Shown here one piece after another: positions 5,267 through 26,000 of a stretch of DNA of 64,000 nt. Within the stretch, counting starts at the first letter, position 1; each line of letters starts with the position of its first letter. The stretch comes from Xestospongia bergquistia (Eukaryota > Porifera > Demospongiae > Haplosclerida > Petrosiidae), in the NCBI GenBank assembly GCA_963965975.1, contig OZ014411.1, positions 8,433,501 to 8,497,500 of the forward strand, read 5' to 3'. The translations under genes and the position numbers were made by a program. Under the pieces are notes generated by a model. The model was not told the origin of the DNA, searched no databases, and saw only the letters and a list, made by a program, of their open reading frames with translations.

Positions 5267-6756
5267 TATTTTGTGTAAACAAAGACAGTCAATCAGTGAG
5301 ATAAGCTAAAGCACATACAACTACAATTACAATAAGTCATTACTTAATAAGATAAGGTTAATAGAATATCAAATAGAAAGGAGGATTGTTAGAGTTGTTA
5401 TGCAATTTAGTTTGTAATAGAACAATATTATTTACATTTCACAACTTACTTCAATATTTTGACAGATCACTAATATATAGGATTGGTTCACTTGAAAGGT
5501 AAATTGATAGATATTCGTAGCTACATACAATATGTATTACCTCATATTACAATACATTTATGATTAGTAAACGTACTTAGTGCACTCTTTATCTTCGAAG
5601 TGTAGATATAACAGATCAATGGACTCAAAGCGGCAAGATAAAGGAAAGTAGGCACCACGCCCTCATGAAGTGAACGAAGGCTCAATACTGGTCCACGCAT
5701 GCGCAAACTATAACGTGTATTCATAGAAATAAAATTATAGCCATGCTGTTTTACAGCCTCCTTGTATCACCAACACAGCTAGCAATTGCTATGTTAGTTA
5801 TGTCCTCCAGTGTCTGCTGATCCACCCTATTTTTTAGAATTCCTGAAATCGACTAGCAAACATGCATGTTATGAATGTACAAAGTCAGGTATAAAATATT
5901 TTAAGGTTAAAAATTCAAATTAATTCAAACTTATGCTGTCACACAGGAGTATGTTCACTGAAGGTATTACTAATTATACAGCATGTACAAGTATAGCAGT
6001 GGTACAACAACACTTTCGTCAGAATCTCTTGTTCAAACTCTACCTATAATCCTGTTATTTGATAAGATCAGTCATAGATTTGTCCCTAAGTTTAATATAA
6101 TAATATAATATAGCTATGGAAGCTATGGTGAATCTCTTCAGACTATTAATATAACAAAGCATGCCAACCTTTATGTACTCACATAACAAAGACTTCAACA
6201 TCGTTAGTCAAAACTATTGTAACAAATAACATTTATGACATCAATTGTTATGTTTAATAGAACTGAGTGTCCAGTTGTTCAAGTACAACATTAGATAAGA
6301 TGTATATGTAGCTAACATATACATTTGTATGTATGTTTATTTGTATCACATTCAGAAAAATACATTAAAAGTAGGCAGTGCCATTTATAAACTTGTGGGG
6401 ATAGTGAAATATCAGAATAGACACTACTCTTCAATATACATTCCACAGAAAACAATACTTAATGATTCTATATCAGTAACACTAATGTATGTGCAAAATT
6501 GTATTTTGTACAATCAATCACCAGTAACATAGATTACTCCTGTTAATACAACAAAATCATTCAACAAGATCCATTCATGTTTTTCTATCAATCAGATGAA
6601 GGTACAAATGTACATGCACTTTTCATTTAATTAAAACAGCAGGCAATGTAGAAACAATCACTGTATATGTCATCTATTATATGTCTCACTACAATTGACT
6701 ACCTAACAGATGATGTGAATACTATGTGTATACTAACTATATGGTCAGTCTGAAGA
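5267..6756. other. Intergenic sequence upstream of calpain, no gene recognised
   Basis: AT-rich. Short ORFs at 5542-5724 (minus) and 6329-6532 (plus) show no family resemblance and look like chance. Apart from the NRF1-like motif I see nothing identifiable. Confidence 0.6.
5695..5706. promoter_or_regulatory. NRF1-like site, candidate calpain promoter region
   Basis: The reverse strand reads TTGCGCATGCGT, close to the palindromic NRF1 consensus, in an otherwise CpG-poor region. It lies about 430 bp upstream of the candidate first calpain ATG at 5266. Its role as a promoter element is inference. Confidence 0.35.
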
Positions 6757-7947
6757 AAATGATTTCAGGTCATTCAAGTGTATATGGACATCATAATGGC
6801 AAAGGTATTAACATAGTACCAAAGATCAGGATGTTGTACCTTCACAAAATCAGTATACAATTGAGAAGTTAATATTAGAAGTACCTGAAGATCTTATACC
6901 TACTAAAGAGAGATAAAATGAAGCCTCACCTCTTTCCTTATCTCCACTTCCAGAAGGTAGTTGACCCCTGTCCCTTGTTGCTAGAGATTTATTATATCCA
7001 AAACCTGTTTGACTGGTATTTTTAGCTTTGTCCTTATAACTTATTATTTATCTGGATTCTCTTCATATACTATATTTTACATTGCACTTTTTAAAAGCTT
7101 AAAGTTATGGCACCACTTCTTATAAAATTGAGACATAAAATTATGAATGTCGTATTAACTGTTGTTATATAAACAGTCTTAGGTTGACCCTATATAATTA
7201 GCTAATTATAGCTACGACAACACCCATTAACTGAAGAAAGTTATCCAAAGCTGGAGCACTTGAGGAACTAAAAGAGCTGTTATAAATTTAGATAATGAAG
7301 AAGAGTGTTTAGGTAATGATTATTTTTTTAAGCCCCTATAAAAATAAGATATGATAAAAATTATTATAATTAGTAACGTTGTTCTAGTTTACTTAAGTAG
7401 AACTGGTTTTATTCTTGGTCATCAAAAGTATAGCTTTAGTTTTAATTATTCTAACAGTCTTTTTAGTTCATCGATGATTGTAAACATAATTATTCATCGG
7501 TTCCGTTAATGAGATTCATAAGCGACACAATGCCGCCCCACAAGAGACTGAAGACAAAATCTGCAGTACATATAAAAAGAAATGAAAACCACCTTGGATA
7601 GGTTGTGTTGTGGGCCAGCGTTCTGCAATGCATCAGACCTCTGAGATGGTTACCAGCATACTCTTCGGAGTATCCGAAAGGCCGACTAGGATAGGGCTGG
7701 TAGTCTCCCTTTAAACGAGATGAGGCTGGTGTATTTGTGGTTCCCGGTTCCTGAATGCGACATTCCCTAAGAGCTGGAATCCCGTACGGCTGGTTTTAAG
7801 TTAGGGCGATGCTCCAGCCAGGATTACCTCGTCTTCGGACGAGGGTTACCAAGCCAGGTGGCGGTCCCAGCTAGCAATAGCAGGGAATCCTGGAGCCTAA
7901 GTGGAAGCCTGAGTGGGTGAGCGAGTAGGAATCGTTTGGGCAACACA
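6757..7947 (+). repeat. Long dispersed/tandem repeat, copy A (with GC-rich 3' part)
   Basis: The first block, about 6757-7300, is closely matched at 8184-8732, and the last block, about 7785-7947, at 8735-8896. The middle (about 7300-7785) is absent from the second copy. Copies A and B therefore look like a tandem duplication with an internal deletion in B or insertion in A. The 3' end, GGGCAACACA followed by a T-run, is shared by all three copies. No coding capacity was recognised. Confidence 0.75.
7560..7947 (+). other. GC-rich stretch with UUCG-capped hairpins, possible structured RNA or SINE-like unit
   Basis: Markedly richer in GC than its surroundings. Two perfect stems close a cUUCGg tetraloop: 7658-7663 with 7668-7673 (outer helix 7652-7657 with 7696-7701), and 7827-7833 with 7838-7844. 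A further GGCTGG/CCAGCC pairing precedes the second hairpin. The unit ends before a run of T (from about 7951), like a Pol III terminator. I could not match it to U1-U6, SRP, RNase P/MRP, 7SK or tRNA. It may be a SINE, the 3' part of a LINE, or an unrecognised RNA. Confidence 0.4.
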
Positions 7948-8183
7948 ACATGTTTTTTTTTTACTTTGACTAAATCTTTGCTTTATTTTAAACTACAAAA
8001 AATGTCAGCCAATCCAAAGTAAAGTTAATGTTAAGTTTTAGTAGCCGCCAGCTAATATTAGATGAACAACAATAAATAATAAAATAGAACTACGAATTGT
8101 AGAAGTTAGAGATATCAGAAATTCATGAAATGGGTGTTGCAATTACAGATGCCATGAATAATAGTATCTGACACAAATAATAT

Positions 8184-8896
8184 ATGATTTGAGGTCATTC
8201 ATGCGTATATGGACATCATAATGGCAAAAGCATTAACAAAGGTCCCTTCACAAGATCAGTGTACAATTGAGAAGTTAATATTAGAAGTACCTGGAGATCA
8301 TACACCTACTGAAGAGAGATAAAATGAAGCCTAACTTCTTTCCTTATCTCCACCTCCAGAAGGGAGTTGACCCATGTCCCTCGTTGTGACTGATAAGATA
8401 GATTTATTGTATCCAAAACCTGTTTATAATTAACTGCTATTTTTAATTTTGTGCTTATAACTATTTATTTATCTGGCTTCTCTTGATCTACTATATTTTT
8501 ACATTGCACAAGTTTAAAAGCTTAAAGTTATGCTACCACTTTTTATAAAATAGAGACATAAAATTATGAATGTCCATTATTGTATTAACTGTTATATAAA
8601 CAGTCTTAGGTTGACCCTATATAATTAGTTAATCATAGCTACAACAAGGTAAGCCAACAGCATTAGCTGGAGAAAGTTATCCAATGCTGGACCACTCAAG
8701 GAGCTAAAGGAGCTGTTATAAATTTAGATTTAGGCTGGTTTAAAGTTAGGGCGACGCTCCAGCCAGGATTACCTCGTCTTCGGACGAGGGTTACCAAGCC
8801 AGGTAGCGGTCCCAGCTAGCAATAGCAGGGAATCCTGGAGCCTAAGTGGAAGCCTGAGTGGGTGAGCGAGTAGGAATCGTTTGGGCAACACACAAG
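8184..8896 (+). repeat. Repeat copy B (duplicate of 6757-7947 with internal deletion)
   Basis: Closely follows copy A over both outer blocks, including the second UUCG hairpin (8772-8778 with 8783-8789) and the 3' end with downstream T-rich sequence. It lacks the first UUCG hairpin region. Confidence 0.75.
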
Positions 8897-9116
8897 GGTT
8901 TTTTTGGTTTTTTTTATTTACATATTTTTGTTTTTAAAAATCTATTTAAATTACTGGAACTGGCCAGTTTTTAAATGTAAAACAATATAGAATGTTAAGC
9001 TGGCTGGGCCCATCCATGCAAATTTAATATGAAATGGAATCAATAATGATACTTAGCATTTTTAATAACAAAATACACTCAAAAGTCATTAACAATATAT
9101 TACAGGGACATTTTCT

Positions 9117-9171
9117 TAAGTGGAAGCCTGAGTGGGTGAGTCAGGAGGGATCGTTTGGGCAACACACAAGG
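9117..9171 (+). repeat. Repeat copy C, 5'-truncated 3' end fragment
   Basis: Only the last 55 bp of the unit (TAAGTGGAAGCCTGAGTGGG to the CACAAGG end). A shared 3' end with variable 5' truncation is typical of retroposons. Confidence 0.65.
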
Positions 9172-11144
9172 TTTCTTTAATAAATTTACATTTATTTAAA
9201 CTACTGGGAAACTATATCTGTCAATAGAACTGGCACTCAGAAAAAACATTTCATGAATTTGCTGAAGTTGTATGGTATATACAAAATATGCAATTGATAT
9301 TACAAACATAAAACTGACAAAGAAAATTTCAGAAAATATTATTAGAATAAATTTTTTCATATAATAATTGGTTTGACTGGTTTAATAGATACGTTGAAAT
9401 CCTGATATTGAGAATCTAAATCTAATAAAAATTAAAGACATGATATTTAAGATACGTTAGTATCATTATGATTGAAGTCACAATACCTGACCACTAATAT
9501 AGATTTTATTTTATTTTGCAAGTGCAATAATGTTTACATTATTTATATTTTTAATTGCCTAGGTAGCCTGTAAAGAAAGACCATACTTAGTACTTTAATA
9601 TGAAATTAATAACATTGTTTTTCATGTTACTTTTATTTATGAAATAAATACATTTACAATTTGCTGTTCATTTTTTGCTGGTCAAGTTTGAAAAAAGATA
9701 GTAAAAAAATTATAGATTTCATCTCTTGATACTAGGATGTTACAATGTCATATACTACAATAAGAGCAATAGATATAAAAATGTACATGTTTATTTGTAC
9801 ATGTACATGTATTTAAGTAACAAGTCAAAATAAGTTAAGGTTCTATTTCCAGTGAGGTTCCCATTGGTACAGTTGTATACTTCCACCTACTTACAAATAC
9901 ATTTAATTATATAGAACTTGTAGATGTACCTTCACTGCATTTGTCTTGTTGCATTAAGTTCTGTGTAGACAGAATCGGACAAATAGTGTTGACAGTCTTG
10001 AGAATGCCATTCTGAGGGGACTTCCATTTAACAAGAAATCTTCAAAGACGAATGATAGTTTCAGTGATGGCTGTCGAGTACAACGCAAAGAGTACAGAAT
10101 TTGCCCAATGATTACTTATTCACCTTGTACATATTAATACTACAACTGCTATACTTTAAAACATAAAGATAATTCAGAGACAACTGATAGCTACTCCTAT
10201 TTTATCAACATACTCTTGTAACAAGACGCTAACAGAACTATAATGTCAACAAAAACATCCTTTATCAACAAACTTCCTGAACTAGAACTATTAGGTGAAC
10301 ACTGTAATAAAAGACTTCATGCGTATCTACAGCTAATAAACACCTTCAACCAGCAATCTAAAAGCTATCACACAATATCCATCTAAAAAGTCTTTACCAG
10401 TTAAAAACTGTTGTAATGCAACTGTACCAACGGACAGTATCGTGTTCTCAGCTTTAACTTAACAGAAAGCATATCATAAATAACAAAATACTGAACTTAA
10501 ATAGAGTAAAGAAAAGTAAGGTAACCACATAACAAAGAAATGCAAAGTAAATATGACAAGATCTAATTAACACACATACACTACTTAACAAGTCATTCAG
10601 TAAGACAAATACTGGTCATTCAGTAGGACAATCAACAAGGTGAAGTGTTGAGTGAACTCTGTTACACTGTCACCAAATGAAGATAGTGAGATAAACAAAA
10701 GTTTTTTCAACTGAGAAGAAAGCAACAACTACGACAACTACATCAAAACCAACTCAATTACAAATCAATATAGCTAAGAAAACACTTGCAAAAAAGATGT
10801 AATTATGTTTGTAGAGACTGTTTTAAAGATGATAATAATAGTTTTGAAACTTTTGAGTGGATAGTGTGATTCCTGTCTATTATGGACGTACCTTACACGT
10901 ACTATTCCAAAACTAAATGCATTACTTGATAACCAATTCTGTAATGCTGAGCATTACACTAAATAGTATAGTTGTCTGCTTGTCAAAATATTTTTTATTT
11001 ATTGTGTTCATTTCATATTACTAATATAAATATCACTGTCTCTTTTCTATGTTACAACAAATAAAAATCTTATCTCAACACTCTTCTTCATTATTGTTTG
11101 TTTCTTCCATAACACTTCCTTCCAATTTAAAACATGGAACTGTG
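9172..11144. other. Intergenic, no gene recognised
   Basis: AT-rich sequence with scattered TACATGTA palindromes (cluster at about 9780-9812). I found no ORF or exon with family resemblance on either strand. Confidence 0.6.
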
Positions 11145-20000: not shown

Positions 20001-23000
20001 TATTCGCCAACATGTACTATCAACAGCAACAAGTGAGAAATTTAAATGTTTGGAGATGTATTATTGAAATGCTAAATAGCCTCAGCAGTCTGCAGTTCCT
20101 CAGGATCTATAAATTGTAAAGATGCTGCTCTATTATGTACACATAAGTGATGATGCAAAAAATTGTAAAGAAAATGGCGCCAATTATGAATTCTTATTTG
20201 CATTCGAAAGTGTCCTTTACATTAATAAGGTGCTTTTCAATACTTTTAACATGAGAGACTTGTAATTTCAAGATATTTAACACACTGGACACTGTTTGTG
20301 TTAAATTGAGAAAGAGTGGTATTGATGTTGAGGTACAATACACATCATGTAACAAACAGTTAATAGAATATATCACTTTGATGGATGAAGTACATGGTCC
20401 TATGATGTTAGCATCTTCACACTTATTAATTCTTGGCAAAGTGACAAATTCAGTATTATTGTTTCTCTTTTTCATAAATGGAAGTACCATCACAATATTC
20501 CTAGGACAAGTTGTACAGTTATAACATGATGAGCTGGGGCACATGCGTGTACATGTATGTGTGTGAATGTCACATGTATGCATCCTGTAATTGCTAGCAA
20601 GGAGGAGTTATGTGCTATGTATGTCAGATACAAGTGGCCATTAAGTAATTTTTAACCTACTGCTGGAATTTTTCATCATCTCTATTATTATGAAGATGGA
20701 ATACAAGCCACTATTTGCTTCTATCCTAATCCCCTTGGTCATTGTCACTATGTGGTTATTGGCTGATAATTACAATCTGGGACATGTCAGTGCATTCCTG
20801 GGACACTTGGACAGAATAGTAATTTCTGGGAACAATTCAGGGAAATCTCAGACAGTTGACAACTATGTATTAGTCAGCATTATGTTTTTAATAAATCAAG
20901 ATTACATATAGGACAAGGAGATGTTTCACAAGTAGGATGTTGATGTAAAAGAGATTTATTGCTGTTTCTGAAATTTTAGCTGCAGATATAAAATGCTTAC
21001 ATGAGTGTTCATTAATGACATACAAAGTATGCGTTGTATCATGTCATGTCATGTCATAATAGAATGTGAGGAATCCATTCACTTTTTACAGAAGTTCTAG
21101 TTTATTACTTTCCTACGAGTAAGCAGTTTACTGTCTATGTAAAATTTGTGGAGTAGCAAGACAAACTAATTCTCTTTAGCTTATGAGTTATAAAACATCT
21201 CAACTTCAACAGAGAATATTTTTTTTAGAAGTCATATAAAATCCTATAAACAATTTTATTGGAATTTTTTAGGGGCATGAATTGAAGCGTTATCCATAAT
21301 GTTTAACAAGCACTCATCTCTGTATAAGCTAATTTTTTAAAAACTGGTTTTGTAAACAATATGTGTGACTGCTTTATATTTACTATATGTAAATGATGAG
21401 TATAAACTAATGAGATAGAAGAACAGGTGGGATATCAATACATATCAACCAGAAAAAAAACTTGCATAAATAGTTATGTTTTTTAAAATAATAATCCTCA
21501 CTCTGCCATGAAGATAAATTAAATTTAATTCAGTGTAACTAAACTAAAATAATACCTTTGTGTTGTATGATGTTGATTCTGTGGTGTACTTTTTTCAATA
21601 AATTTTGCCTCTACCCTATAATTATTTAAACAGTAATGTGAGATTAATTTGTATATTTTATTTGGTTGACCTTGTCTGAGATATTTCAAGAAAAGGAATA
21701 ATATGACCTTGTCTGAGATAATTCAAGAAAAGGAATAATATGACCTTGTCTGAGATAATTCAAGAAAAGGAATAATATGACCTTGTCTGAGATAATTCAA
21801 GATAAACACAAGAAAAATAATGGGCAGCAGCTTTTAGCGTTTTGGTTAAAATTTCTCCTGAACCAGGAGAGGTCTTAGAAATTGCTTGCACAATTATATA
21901 AAATATCCTCCTCTGTTACATGAAAAAATTCTGTTAAGCGCAACAGTATGGATAATCTTAGAGCAAGCAATGCTAAAACTAGAAACAAATCACAGATTCC
22001 TAGAATTGATAAGAATCCATACATCAGCATGATATAATATCACTATTTCTAAGAAATGTTATTATTATCAAATAGAACTCTTATATCTGTATACCAGCTC
22101 TACTTGTTAAGTGAATTCTTTTCATTCATTAGCCAATAATGCATATAGTTGCTGAGTGCGTTAGCATGAGGCATTTAATCTTATAAGGGTTCAGTGCTGT
22201 CTTAGACTGATCTCATGGGGAAATGTTTATATATAGGTCACTCTTAGGAATGTAATTATTTGCTTTTTAGAACACATAATTACAGGAATGTTTATTTTTC
22301 ATGAATAAGTAAATGAAGTTATTTGCTAATAATAAATGTGTGTATAAATGAAAAGCCATAAGTAGTATTGACAAATGTCAGCGGTATTTGTCAAAGCTGA
22401 GAAAAAGATAGTTTCACAATTTGTAAGAGTCACAACTTCATGTTTGTCATGAAACTTCTTTAATCGCCAACGTATTTGTGAAACAAACCTGAATACTTGC
22501 ACTCATTCTATCAGTTAACTCTCCATTGAAGAATGAAGAAGTCTTCCTTGACTTCATTGGAGATAAAGATGTCAAGATACCACATACAGAAGATAGCAAA
22601 CAAATGTCGCTTATATCATAGAAAGTTCTCTTTTCAGCCATTACTGGCGACACATCTGTGTATGTGGCATTGAGGCTTCATGCGCATATATTCCTAATAT
22701 ATCTAATAGATGTTATGTATAGGGCACTTTAAAAAAAAAGATTATTATTACGTCTAGTTATTCCTTCCTATGTCATGTTAAGTGAGGATGCTTGGAATGA
22801 AATTATGGAAATGTTGCATCATTGAAAGATATAAGCAATATTTCTTACTTCAAGTAATAACTATAAGTAACTTAATTCTTTCCCTATTCCTTGTTCCTTT
22901 TTGATGAAGCTACATTAATTACTAATATTACACTCCCAGCACAAGATACTCTGTCCTTACCAAGAAACTAGAAAACTTAGAAGAGGGTATCTTATCATGC

Positions 23001-26000
23001 AGAATATTGGAGGAGAGACAAGTTTCACTCACGGTAGTTTTGAGGGTGTATAACAGTGTTGTTGCAATTACATTAGAAAATGTAATCATTGCTTTCAATT
23101 ACTTTTGAATTTTCAATGTAATGATTACAATTACGATTACTTTGTTCATAAAATGTAATGATTACTATAATTTAGTCATACAATAATTATATGACTAAAT
23201 TACAATTACAATTACTCAATTAAATGTTCTGTTCAACTTAAATAACCTTTGTTAACATTTAGGAAAACCAAATTTTCAAAATTTTTTGGTAATAGGCGTG
23301 ATCGATCTGATCGTAAAATTTTTCCAGCTTGACTAAAGGCTCGCTCTACAGGTGCAGAAGTTGCTGGTACAGTAAACACTTTTCTTGCTACTTGAGCTAA
23401 GTTAGGGTACCGTTGTGCATTATCTTTCCAAAAGTTTAATGGATTTCTACTTGTCTCAAGAGCTTGAGGACTCTCACAGTCTAAATATGCTTGAAACTCT
23501 CCTTCCATATCTGATACTACTTCTCTTTGTGGTTGTTCTAAGAATGCAAATAATTTAGTCATCTTTGTTTTCTTTGGTTGTGGAGGTTCAGTGTCATTTC
23601 GGGGTTTTTCCTGATAATCTGTGACAAGTACATCATTTGTTGTAGGAATACGAGAAATTTCAGCTAGAACCATTGCCTTGACTTGAAGACGTTCTGCCTC
23701 TGTTGAGCACCATTTCAACTTAAAGTTGGGATTAAGGAATGTTGAAATGCAAAAAAGTGATTCTGTAGTTACATGTCCTAATCTTGTTTCGAGAGAGGCA
23801 GCAAGACTGGTAATTATACTACGACAATGTTTGGCTTTCTCTTTAAAGTTGTCCAAATTTCTCATCAATCCAACATAAGTTGGGACAACCAGGCAAATGG
23901 AGGCATATTCTTCACCCTGAAGAATGTCAGTAGCATTTTCAAAAGGTTCGAAAATATCAACAAATTCACGCAGTATATTTTTCTCATGGTTACTCAAGTG
24001 AAGCTCTCTCTTATCTAAAACTTCATTTATATCTACCTCTATTGCCCTACGAACCATTTTCAATTGGGAATTCCAACGTGTTTCATTTTTGGAAATGAGG
24101 GTTTTGTCAAATACAGACTCTAGTTTCTCTGTCGCAAGGGTAGATTTCTTGACATGGTTTACTATTTTAGCAACTTTTGCAATAGCTTTGTTAATTGCTG
24201 TGATGAGGCGAGACCATCTTTAACACATAGCTGGAGAGAGTGGGCAAAGCAACTGATTCGTTGTGGTAGAGTCTCCAATTGAATATCTTCTTCTGGTAAT
24301 TCTCCCTCTGACATTTCTTCATCCTCATCATTGTCACTACCTTCTTCATCACTCTGCAAAGTAAATCCAGGCAAAGAAACTTTGAAGGCTTTCTTCATGT
24401 TGGAGGCATTGTCTGTTACTATTTTGAAAAGCTTGTCTCTAATATTATATTCATCAACAAGTTCTTCATAATGAGAATATATGTTGTCAGCTGTATGAGA
24501 TCCCAGTATCTGCTTACAAGCAAGTAAATATGAAACCATTTTCCATTCAATTATAACATGGCAAGACACTCCAAGGTAAGCATGCATACGTCTGCTACTT
24601 CAGATGTCCAGTGTCATTGAGCAAAAATCAATCATCTCTAAACTAGAAAACGTAGAAAAAGGTATCTTATTATGCAGAATATATTGGAGGAGAGACAGGT
24701 TTCACTCACAGTAGTTTTGGGGGTGTATAAATATATAAAAGTTTAAAACTGTTTAGTTTTATTTACTAGACTATGTGAGCAAGGGATAATAGAGTTTATA
24801 AACATAAACCATTCCCACATAAATTCAAAAGTATATTCTGCATAATAGTAAGCGTTGGGTTTCTTGTATCAATGATGAAACAGCTACTGTAATAGGGGAA
24901 AGTAATGTGCTCTTAAAATAATGCAAACTGCCCAAAATTTAGCCGTTGAAATATTAATGCTTGTTTAAATAATGCAGACACACACATGCACAAGGTTGAC
25001 ACGGTTCACTTGGCAATTGTATTATATTATACCATGCATTAAGGTAGTGCATGTTAAATATCTACTGTTCATCAAAAGGCAAAAGGGTGATCCTCTGAAT
25101 CACAGTCACTCTCAGCTTCGTCCATTGCCTCACAGATTCCTGCCTCCACAAACCCACCATGCACAATTTCAGCCTTGGTTCTAAGATAGTCATAGGCAGA
25201 GATAATCCACCTGGCACTGAGGGGCTTCATCACAGAGAGTTTCATGTCTACTTCAATGTCCTCTGGCTGTTTTCCATCGTCCATTTGTTTTGACACCTGC
25301 TCAGAATACCACAATTGAAACTTAGATCTAAGGTGGTCTTTCAGGGGCTCGTTCAAGGAGATCGTTGGATAGAACTAGAGGTGCTAAAACATGCAGCTGG
25401 ACTGATTTAGCACGTGCAATCTAAATTAACGCGTGGGAAAAAATATTTTCTTAATAATGTGGAAGCCAATTTACTCTCATTTATAACATTAATAAGACAG
25501 TCGCATTAATTTTCCCAATTACTGTATTTGTTTGGCTGTTTGGTGCTTATTTTGTAGGATGTTGACATCCACATCTTCCTTCATTCCAGTATTAACTTCA
25601 CACTCTGCTAGCATCATAGTTTAAAGCACTTTTTCTATCCTGAGCACATTTTATATAATCATGGTCAATGTTATGATCATGAAGATTGTAATATAGTGTG
25701 ACAGGTGTGGTCAATACCTCTTTATCTCATTGTAACACTCCTATTCATGTCATGTTTTCATAAATTGACATTTTATTTGTTTGGCTTATTTTTAATATAC
25801 TTTCAATAATTTCAAATCACTCTATTATCAAGATTTTATGTAATTTTTTACATTTTTCAAAAAGTAAGTGACTTCAACTATTATGAGGTACAATGAGGTT
25901 CAAATTCTGTTAATTTGTAAAGTATATATTCTTTAATTTTCTTTAATTGTCATGCAACATTCAAAAATCAAGTCATGTTGTCTTGCAAGCTTGAATTTTG

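Follow-up and report, generated by a model that had tools for sequence, protein, structure and literature searches.

A dispersed family of predicted structured RNA genes with a U6-type promoter in the sponge Xestospongia bergquistia

The animal RNAs known to be made from type-3 RNA polymerase III (Pol III) genes form a short list: U6, U6atac, 7SK, RNase P, RNase MRP, Y and tRNA-Sec. Judged by its sequence, the locus described here appears to be one copy of a gene for a structured RNA of about 350 nucleotides with a promoter of the U6 kind. It resembles the 7SK RNA gene in having a type-3 promoter, a similar length, a structured product and a T-run at its end. As outlined in PMC8406779, GATC is the HEXIM contact motif of 7SK, and in mammals functional 7SK is single-copy; the RNA of the present locus, in contrast, is without GATC, and its gene occurs in hundreds of copies. 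The Class I RNAs of dictyostelids are outlined in PMC7919456 as products of dispersed multicopy non-coding RNA genes that share an upstream element with other ncRNA genes; their 5′ and 3′ ends are joined by a stem with compensatory changes, and they are lineage-restricted and of unknown function. The present family is likewise multicopy, with a common upstream element and a stem joining the ends. This likeness is drawn from descriptions of the genes. Class I RNAs have a median length of about 60 nt and 18–39 genes per species (PMC7919456), whereas the present RNA is about 350 nt long with hundreds of genes. With Y RNAs and nematode stem-bulge RNAs the locus shares pairing ends and, in this genome, the promoter class; those RNAs are about 70–240 nt long and have GGTGGTCC...GACCAC ends, which are missing here. 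SINEs are also short, with hundreds of dispersed copies, some of them truncated, but the promoter of the present gene is external rather than internal, and it was duplicated together with its flanks.

The gene lies in a window of 64,000 nucleotides, the whole stretch of DNA that was analysed. Copies were sought in the 146-Mb genome (21 contigs), and all comparisons were made within this one genome; they were assigned to subfamilies A and B and to an older group, C. The features of the window copy and of two partial copies beside it are as follows.

About 7506 to 7962, plus strand: whole gene, from the promoter through a run of ten T (T10)
7506 to 7519, plus strand: distal promoter element TTAATGAGATTCAT, with an ATTCAT core common to 15 of 16 compared promoters
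7537 to 7570, plus strand: proximal, PSE-like promoter element; a CCCACAA box at −34 from TATA, followed by AAAATCTGCAGTACA
7571 to 7578, plus strand: TATA box, at the distance from the start that U6 genes L029 and L030 also show
7600 to 7952, plus strand: predicted RNA, about 353 nt, with its start placed by the U6 rule and low diversity over 7599–7953
7602 to 7610, plus strand: 5′ strand of the closing helix, GTTGTGTTG, complementary to 7941–7949
7658 to 7673, plus strand: hairpin ATACTC-TTCG-GAGTAT, a perfect cUUCGg
7818 to 7893, plus strand: 3′ domain, closed by helix CCAGGATT/AATCCTGG (7818–7825 with 7886–7893); helices 7–10 of a 61-pair model
7827 to 7844, plus strand: hairpin CCTCGTC-TTCG-GACGAGG, a perfect cUUCGg
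7870 to 7881, plus strand: hairpin GCTA-GCAA-TAGC with a GNRA loop
7941 to 7949, plus strand: 3′ strand of the closing helix, CAACACAAC, with matched ends and covariation
7953 to 7962, plus strand: T10, predicted Pol III terminator, a T-run common to A and B copies
8733 to 8905, plus strand: partial copy, 3′ part only, B-type end, 96% to 7788–7960
9117 to 9178, plus strand: short partial copy, 3′ end only, B-type end, 87% to 7898–7959

The first-pass annotation had described a GC-rich unit at 7560–7947 with two perfect cUUCGg hairpins, one nested in a further helix, a T-run after the unit and three local occurrences that share their 3′ end. These elements were all recovered. The GC content of the RNA is 53%, against 28–37% in 1-kb steps over 6001–10000; the hairpin at 7827–7844 is enclosed, together with a GCC/GGC arm and the GCAA hairpin, by the CCAGGATT/AATCCTGG helix, and the three occurrences are 7788–7960 and the two partial copies. 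The GCAA hairpin had been overlooked, and the bounds need correction, as 7560 falls inside the promoter and 7947 inside the closing helix. The partial copy at 8733–8905 carries neither promoter nor 5′ part. The upstream flank is duplicated within the window, with 8184–8729 matching 6759–7293 at 82% over 568 columns, and this second flank copy leads directly into that promoterless gene fragment. Elsewhere in the window, the remains of a hAT transposase, recognised by its C-terminal dimerisation domain, were found on the minus strand at 23233–24587, and a near-perfect tandem array of a 37-nt unit (3.7 copies) at 21667–21802.

The promoter at 7506–7578 consists of ATTCAT, CCCACAA, AAAATC..CAG and TATA at near-fixed spacing, as in the U6, 7SK-like and Y-like genes of this genome, and the upstream block of the U6 genes is identical in kind. 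The genome was searched with a degenerate PSE/TATA pattern designed to exclude the common form of the family, which gave 18 places, against 1 for the reversed control. Two of these (C2 near 4.78 Mb) were known family places, L088 and L089 were family remnants, and C14:210687 was left out; the remaining 13 were U6 genes (L029, L030 and the masked L098), the 7SK-like L090, and nine Y-like promoters in eight loci (L062, L091–L097). Together with types A, B and C of the present family they make up the 16 compared promoters. In 15 of these, ATTCAT lies no more than 140 nt upstream of TATA (shuffled expectation 0.08 each). A CCCACAA-like box is present in every one, at −34 in 15 and at −33 in the other, and the TATA box and its distance to the start are common to them as well. 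As U6 starts 29 nt past the T of TATA, the start of the RNA was placed at 7600. All copies inspected for a T-run (46 A and 10 B) have four or more T no further than 12 nt from the 3′ end. External PSE and TATA elements at a fixed spacing common with U6, and a T-run terminator directly after the RNA, mark type-3 (U6/7SK-type) genes, and both are found here; it is thus very probable that the locus is a type-3 gene of a structured RNA, which Pol III would transcribe. Counted against this reading is the PSE/TATA stretch within subfamily B, which varies (0.19) in the PSE-like tail, and the element therefore seems less constrained there.

Several other genes were met in the course of these searches. 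The 7SK-like gene L090 (G000:C8:830130-830670, minus strand) stands behind a promoter of the same type, and the Rfam search was silent on it; we take it to be 7SK-like from its GATC motifs and a CCCGAAGCTG.GCGCTCGGTCGA block known from vertebrate 7SK, and not from a model. A HEXIM gene lies at C15:1731966; other animal-type genes of the genome include Ank, CABIT, THAP, FMO-like, DSPc and Glyco_transf_92. The nine Y-like genes (L062, L091–L097; C2, C13 and C14) also have this promoter type. On C14, near 1.06 Mb, three of them are grouped in 2 kb, and several are much longer than usual Y RNAs. The Rfam Y model gave 25.3 bits for L062 and 26.4 bits for L093, both below the cut-off of 38 bits, and L092 reached 29 bits with a nematode sRNA family, again below cut-off; the other Y-like loci were named by resemblance. 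Three RNase P RNA genes lie about 8.6 kb apart at G000:C5:8258235-8275789, and a weaker one (59.9 bits, C5:7906790) could be MRP.

A DNA search with 7560–7947 returned at least 42 matches, 40 of which covered the whole query at 98–100% (best 40 of 418 candidates scored). A 36-nt pattern from the 3′ core, with up to three mismatches, was found at 329 places in the genome (reversed control 0), and a promoter pattern with up to two mismatches at 299 (reversed control 10). Contig C1 has 61 exact promoters and 80 exact 3′ cores; 57 of the promoters are followed by such a core at the expected spacing, and 57 of the cores have such a promoter. We estimate that more than 200 copies genome-wide bear a promoter. 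Across 53 distinct copies, conservation follows the anatomy of the gene. Diversity was 0.47 over 7400–7500, 0.16–0.17 over 7501–7552, 0.0115 over the PSE/TATA stretch (7553–7580), 0.075 over the spacer (7581–7598), 0.0096 over the RNA (7599–7953) and 0.24 over the 3′ flank (7963–8060). Since L001–L028 were chosen by core similarity and L032–L061 by exact promoter match, the values for the RNA and the promoter, respectively, are biased downwards.

These copies bear on the strongest rival to a host gene, namely a repeat of a selfish or hitchhiking kind. In this view a type-3 Pol III gene is carried by a non-autonomous element or a duplication unit, the RNA would serve the element or nothing, and the copies would be alike through youth or conversion. 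The several hundred copies, some decayed (among the C copies) and some truncated at either end or both, are what such a repeat would leave, as are long upstream stretches common to the window and other copies (6042–6800 in L027 and L052; 6224–7272 in L053). The B-type 3′ end, present at 175 places (control 0), points the same way: among 100 places listed, C3–C8 hold 69, of which 60 are no more than 1 Mb from a contig end, where 15.3 would be expected; for C1 and C2 the figures are 5 of 22 (1.9 expected), a count that leaves out the nine listed places on other contigs. Against it, no common outer ends of the copies were found, similarity fading gradually, and the sole inverted pair seen is not a boundary. 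That pair (5989–6004 and 10141–10156) resembled the terminal repeats of a DNA transposon, but homology with L027 runs beyond the left arm. Moreover, promoter and RNA are near identical between copies whose flanks differ by up to 0.47, which is unlike a young repeat. We rate the selfish repeat as rather unlikely, and lean towards a host function.

The copies also differ in their ends. Subfamily A starts with GGTTGTGTTG and ends with CAACACAACATG; subfamily B and most of the older C copies start with (GCC)AGTGTGTTG and end with CAACACACAAGG. When any start was allowed to go with any end across the loci examined, 72 matches were obtained, comprising 56 A-A, 16 B-type and no mixed pairs; the loci partly overlap, and two of the 16 B-type matches (L063, L075) have damaged 5′ ends. 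The ends thus differ between subfamilies, yet within each they are complementary to one another. In a comparison of 46 A with 10 B copies, the body differed by 1.3%, as compared with 42% for the spacer, 40% for the 5′ end and 23% for the 3′ end. Body diversity among the ten B copies, five chosen by their 3′ end alone and five by similarity to an older copy, was 0.014. Bodies so alike between promoters and ends that differ suggest conversion of the transcribed tract, and it could be argued that conversion alone, with no function, accounts for the uniformity of the copies. Conversion by itself would not leave the spacer drifting and yet spare the TATA box, the terminator and the matched ends, and we consider this account improbable.

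Folding alone is mildly unusual, and the strong evidence beyond chance comes from the copies. For 7560–7960 the folding energy had a z of −1.58 (9 of 100 shuffles as good), for the A-type RNA at 7599–7953 a z of −2.33 (1 of 100), and for a B copy a z of −1.68. Covariation was examined in 20 sequences picked for diversity (5 A, 4 B and 11 C) on a structure of 61 pairs made by hand from the minimum free energy fold, the consensus and the A/B ends, which therefore leans towards the data. In this model 97.0% of cells were paired, against 36–44% in slid controls. Double-change cells numbered 16, against 6.4 ± 1.7 in shuffles (0 of 500 as high) and 0–4 in slid controls, and the covariation score was 0.058 against 0.036 for shuffles. 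Of the five measures, two did not exceed the shuffles (3 double-change pairs; 22 further pair types), and one slid control had 4 double-change pairs against the 3 of the model. The pairs that covary belong to the closing helix, where U-A changes to G-C on both strands, to columns 190–196/207–213 and to the GCC/GGC arm. RNAalifold on the same 20 sequences gave an unfavourable covariation term (+1.24) and a different pairing for the 5′ end. The loop at 7658–7673 is UUCG or UACG, and GUAA in L075 and L079; that at 7827–7844 is UUCG in 8 of 53 copies, and most of the remaining 45 have CGAAGA or CGGAGA. Covariation is thus present but modest.

Known families were then considered. No Rfam model reached its gathering score anywhere in the window, and over 7400–8000 there were two chance-level matches only (E 5 and 6.3). 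The models for 7SL (SRP RNA), RNase P RNA and U6 had no match at the locus, and genes for these RNAs were located elsewhere in the genome. 7SK was rejected on the lack of GATC in 7600–7953 and on the separate gene L090; the Rfam 7SK model also had no match at the locus, which is a weak test as it misses L090 too. The locus could also be a very divergent form of a Pol III RNA already known, with RNase MRP and telomerase RNA as examples; length and promoter class would fit, and models often miss these families. Hundreds of copies are atypical of both. RNase MRP has a conserved ACAG-type P4 strand, and the RNA contains no ACAG and has no Rfam match better than E 5; for telomerase RNA, CTAACCC and CCCTAAC were absent and CCCTAA occurred once, unconserved, so that no telomere template was seen. 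We hold a divergent known RNA to be very improbable. Protein coding was rejected as well: a 96-aa antisense frame has no Pfam match at E 1 and extends into the drifting spacer. An antisense open frame of 96 aa or longer runs through the gene in L017, L048 and L058, probably as a by-product of the GC-rich body.

The first-pass annotation had offered two identities, an undescribed structured RNA and a SINE or the 3′ region of a LINE. Dispersed short copies and local partial copies with a common 3′ end would suit the second. No exact A or B box is present inside the gene, however, and one-mismatch matches numbered 3 for A and 0 for B, against shuffled means of 3.63 and 1.42; the external promoter travels with full-length copies, and truncation of partial copies affects either end or both rather than the 5′ end only. 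A SINE or LINE tail is by now largely refuted and retains next to no credibility. The first identity has held up, given the U6-type external promoter, the terminator, the conserved body, the matched ends and some compensatory changes between copies, the absence of which had been named as grounds for abandoning it. Its statement that no known ncRNA family could be matched stands too, and no description of this RNA was seen among the titles and abstract starts listed by a literature search. Novelty here rests on Rfam release 15 and the literature, and an entry in the Dfam or Repbase repeat libraries may exist. The family appears to be a real and unusual one of multicopy type-3 Pol III RNA genes, and not a SINE.

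The best explanation overall, in which we place somewhat more belief than doubt, is that the locus is one gene of a several-hundred-copy family encoding a structured non-coding RNA of about 350 nt. The two ends of the RNA would pair in the closing helix and its interior would form arms capped by UNCG and GNRA loops, both supported by comparison of copies. The closed, U-tailed RNA might bind La-type proteins, and with hundreds of near-identical genes, gene dosage would probably make it very abundant. Tentatively, it may act as a non-catalytic scaffold or decoy RNP in the manner of 7SK, Y and viral VA RNAs. Copies would spread as DNA duplications, with selection and gene conversion keeping the RNA body uniform. 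A bolder version is speculative and, in our estimation, unlikely: a new major animal RNP RNA from hundreds of complete, dispersed type-3 genes, partly clustered at contig ends, with a body kept uniform despite subfamily-specific promoters and ends by conversion possibly templated by the RNA itself, an idea suggested by the uniform tract reaching no further than the closing helix.

With ends that match and loops that are exchanged between copies, the structure can be tested directly, and the promoter grammar read from these genes also exposed a 7SK-like gene absent from the Rfam search results. If the proposal is true, the type-3 list gains an RNA encoded by hundreds of genes, and Rfam annotation has been missing an abundant RNP.
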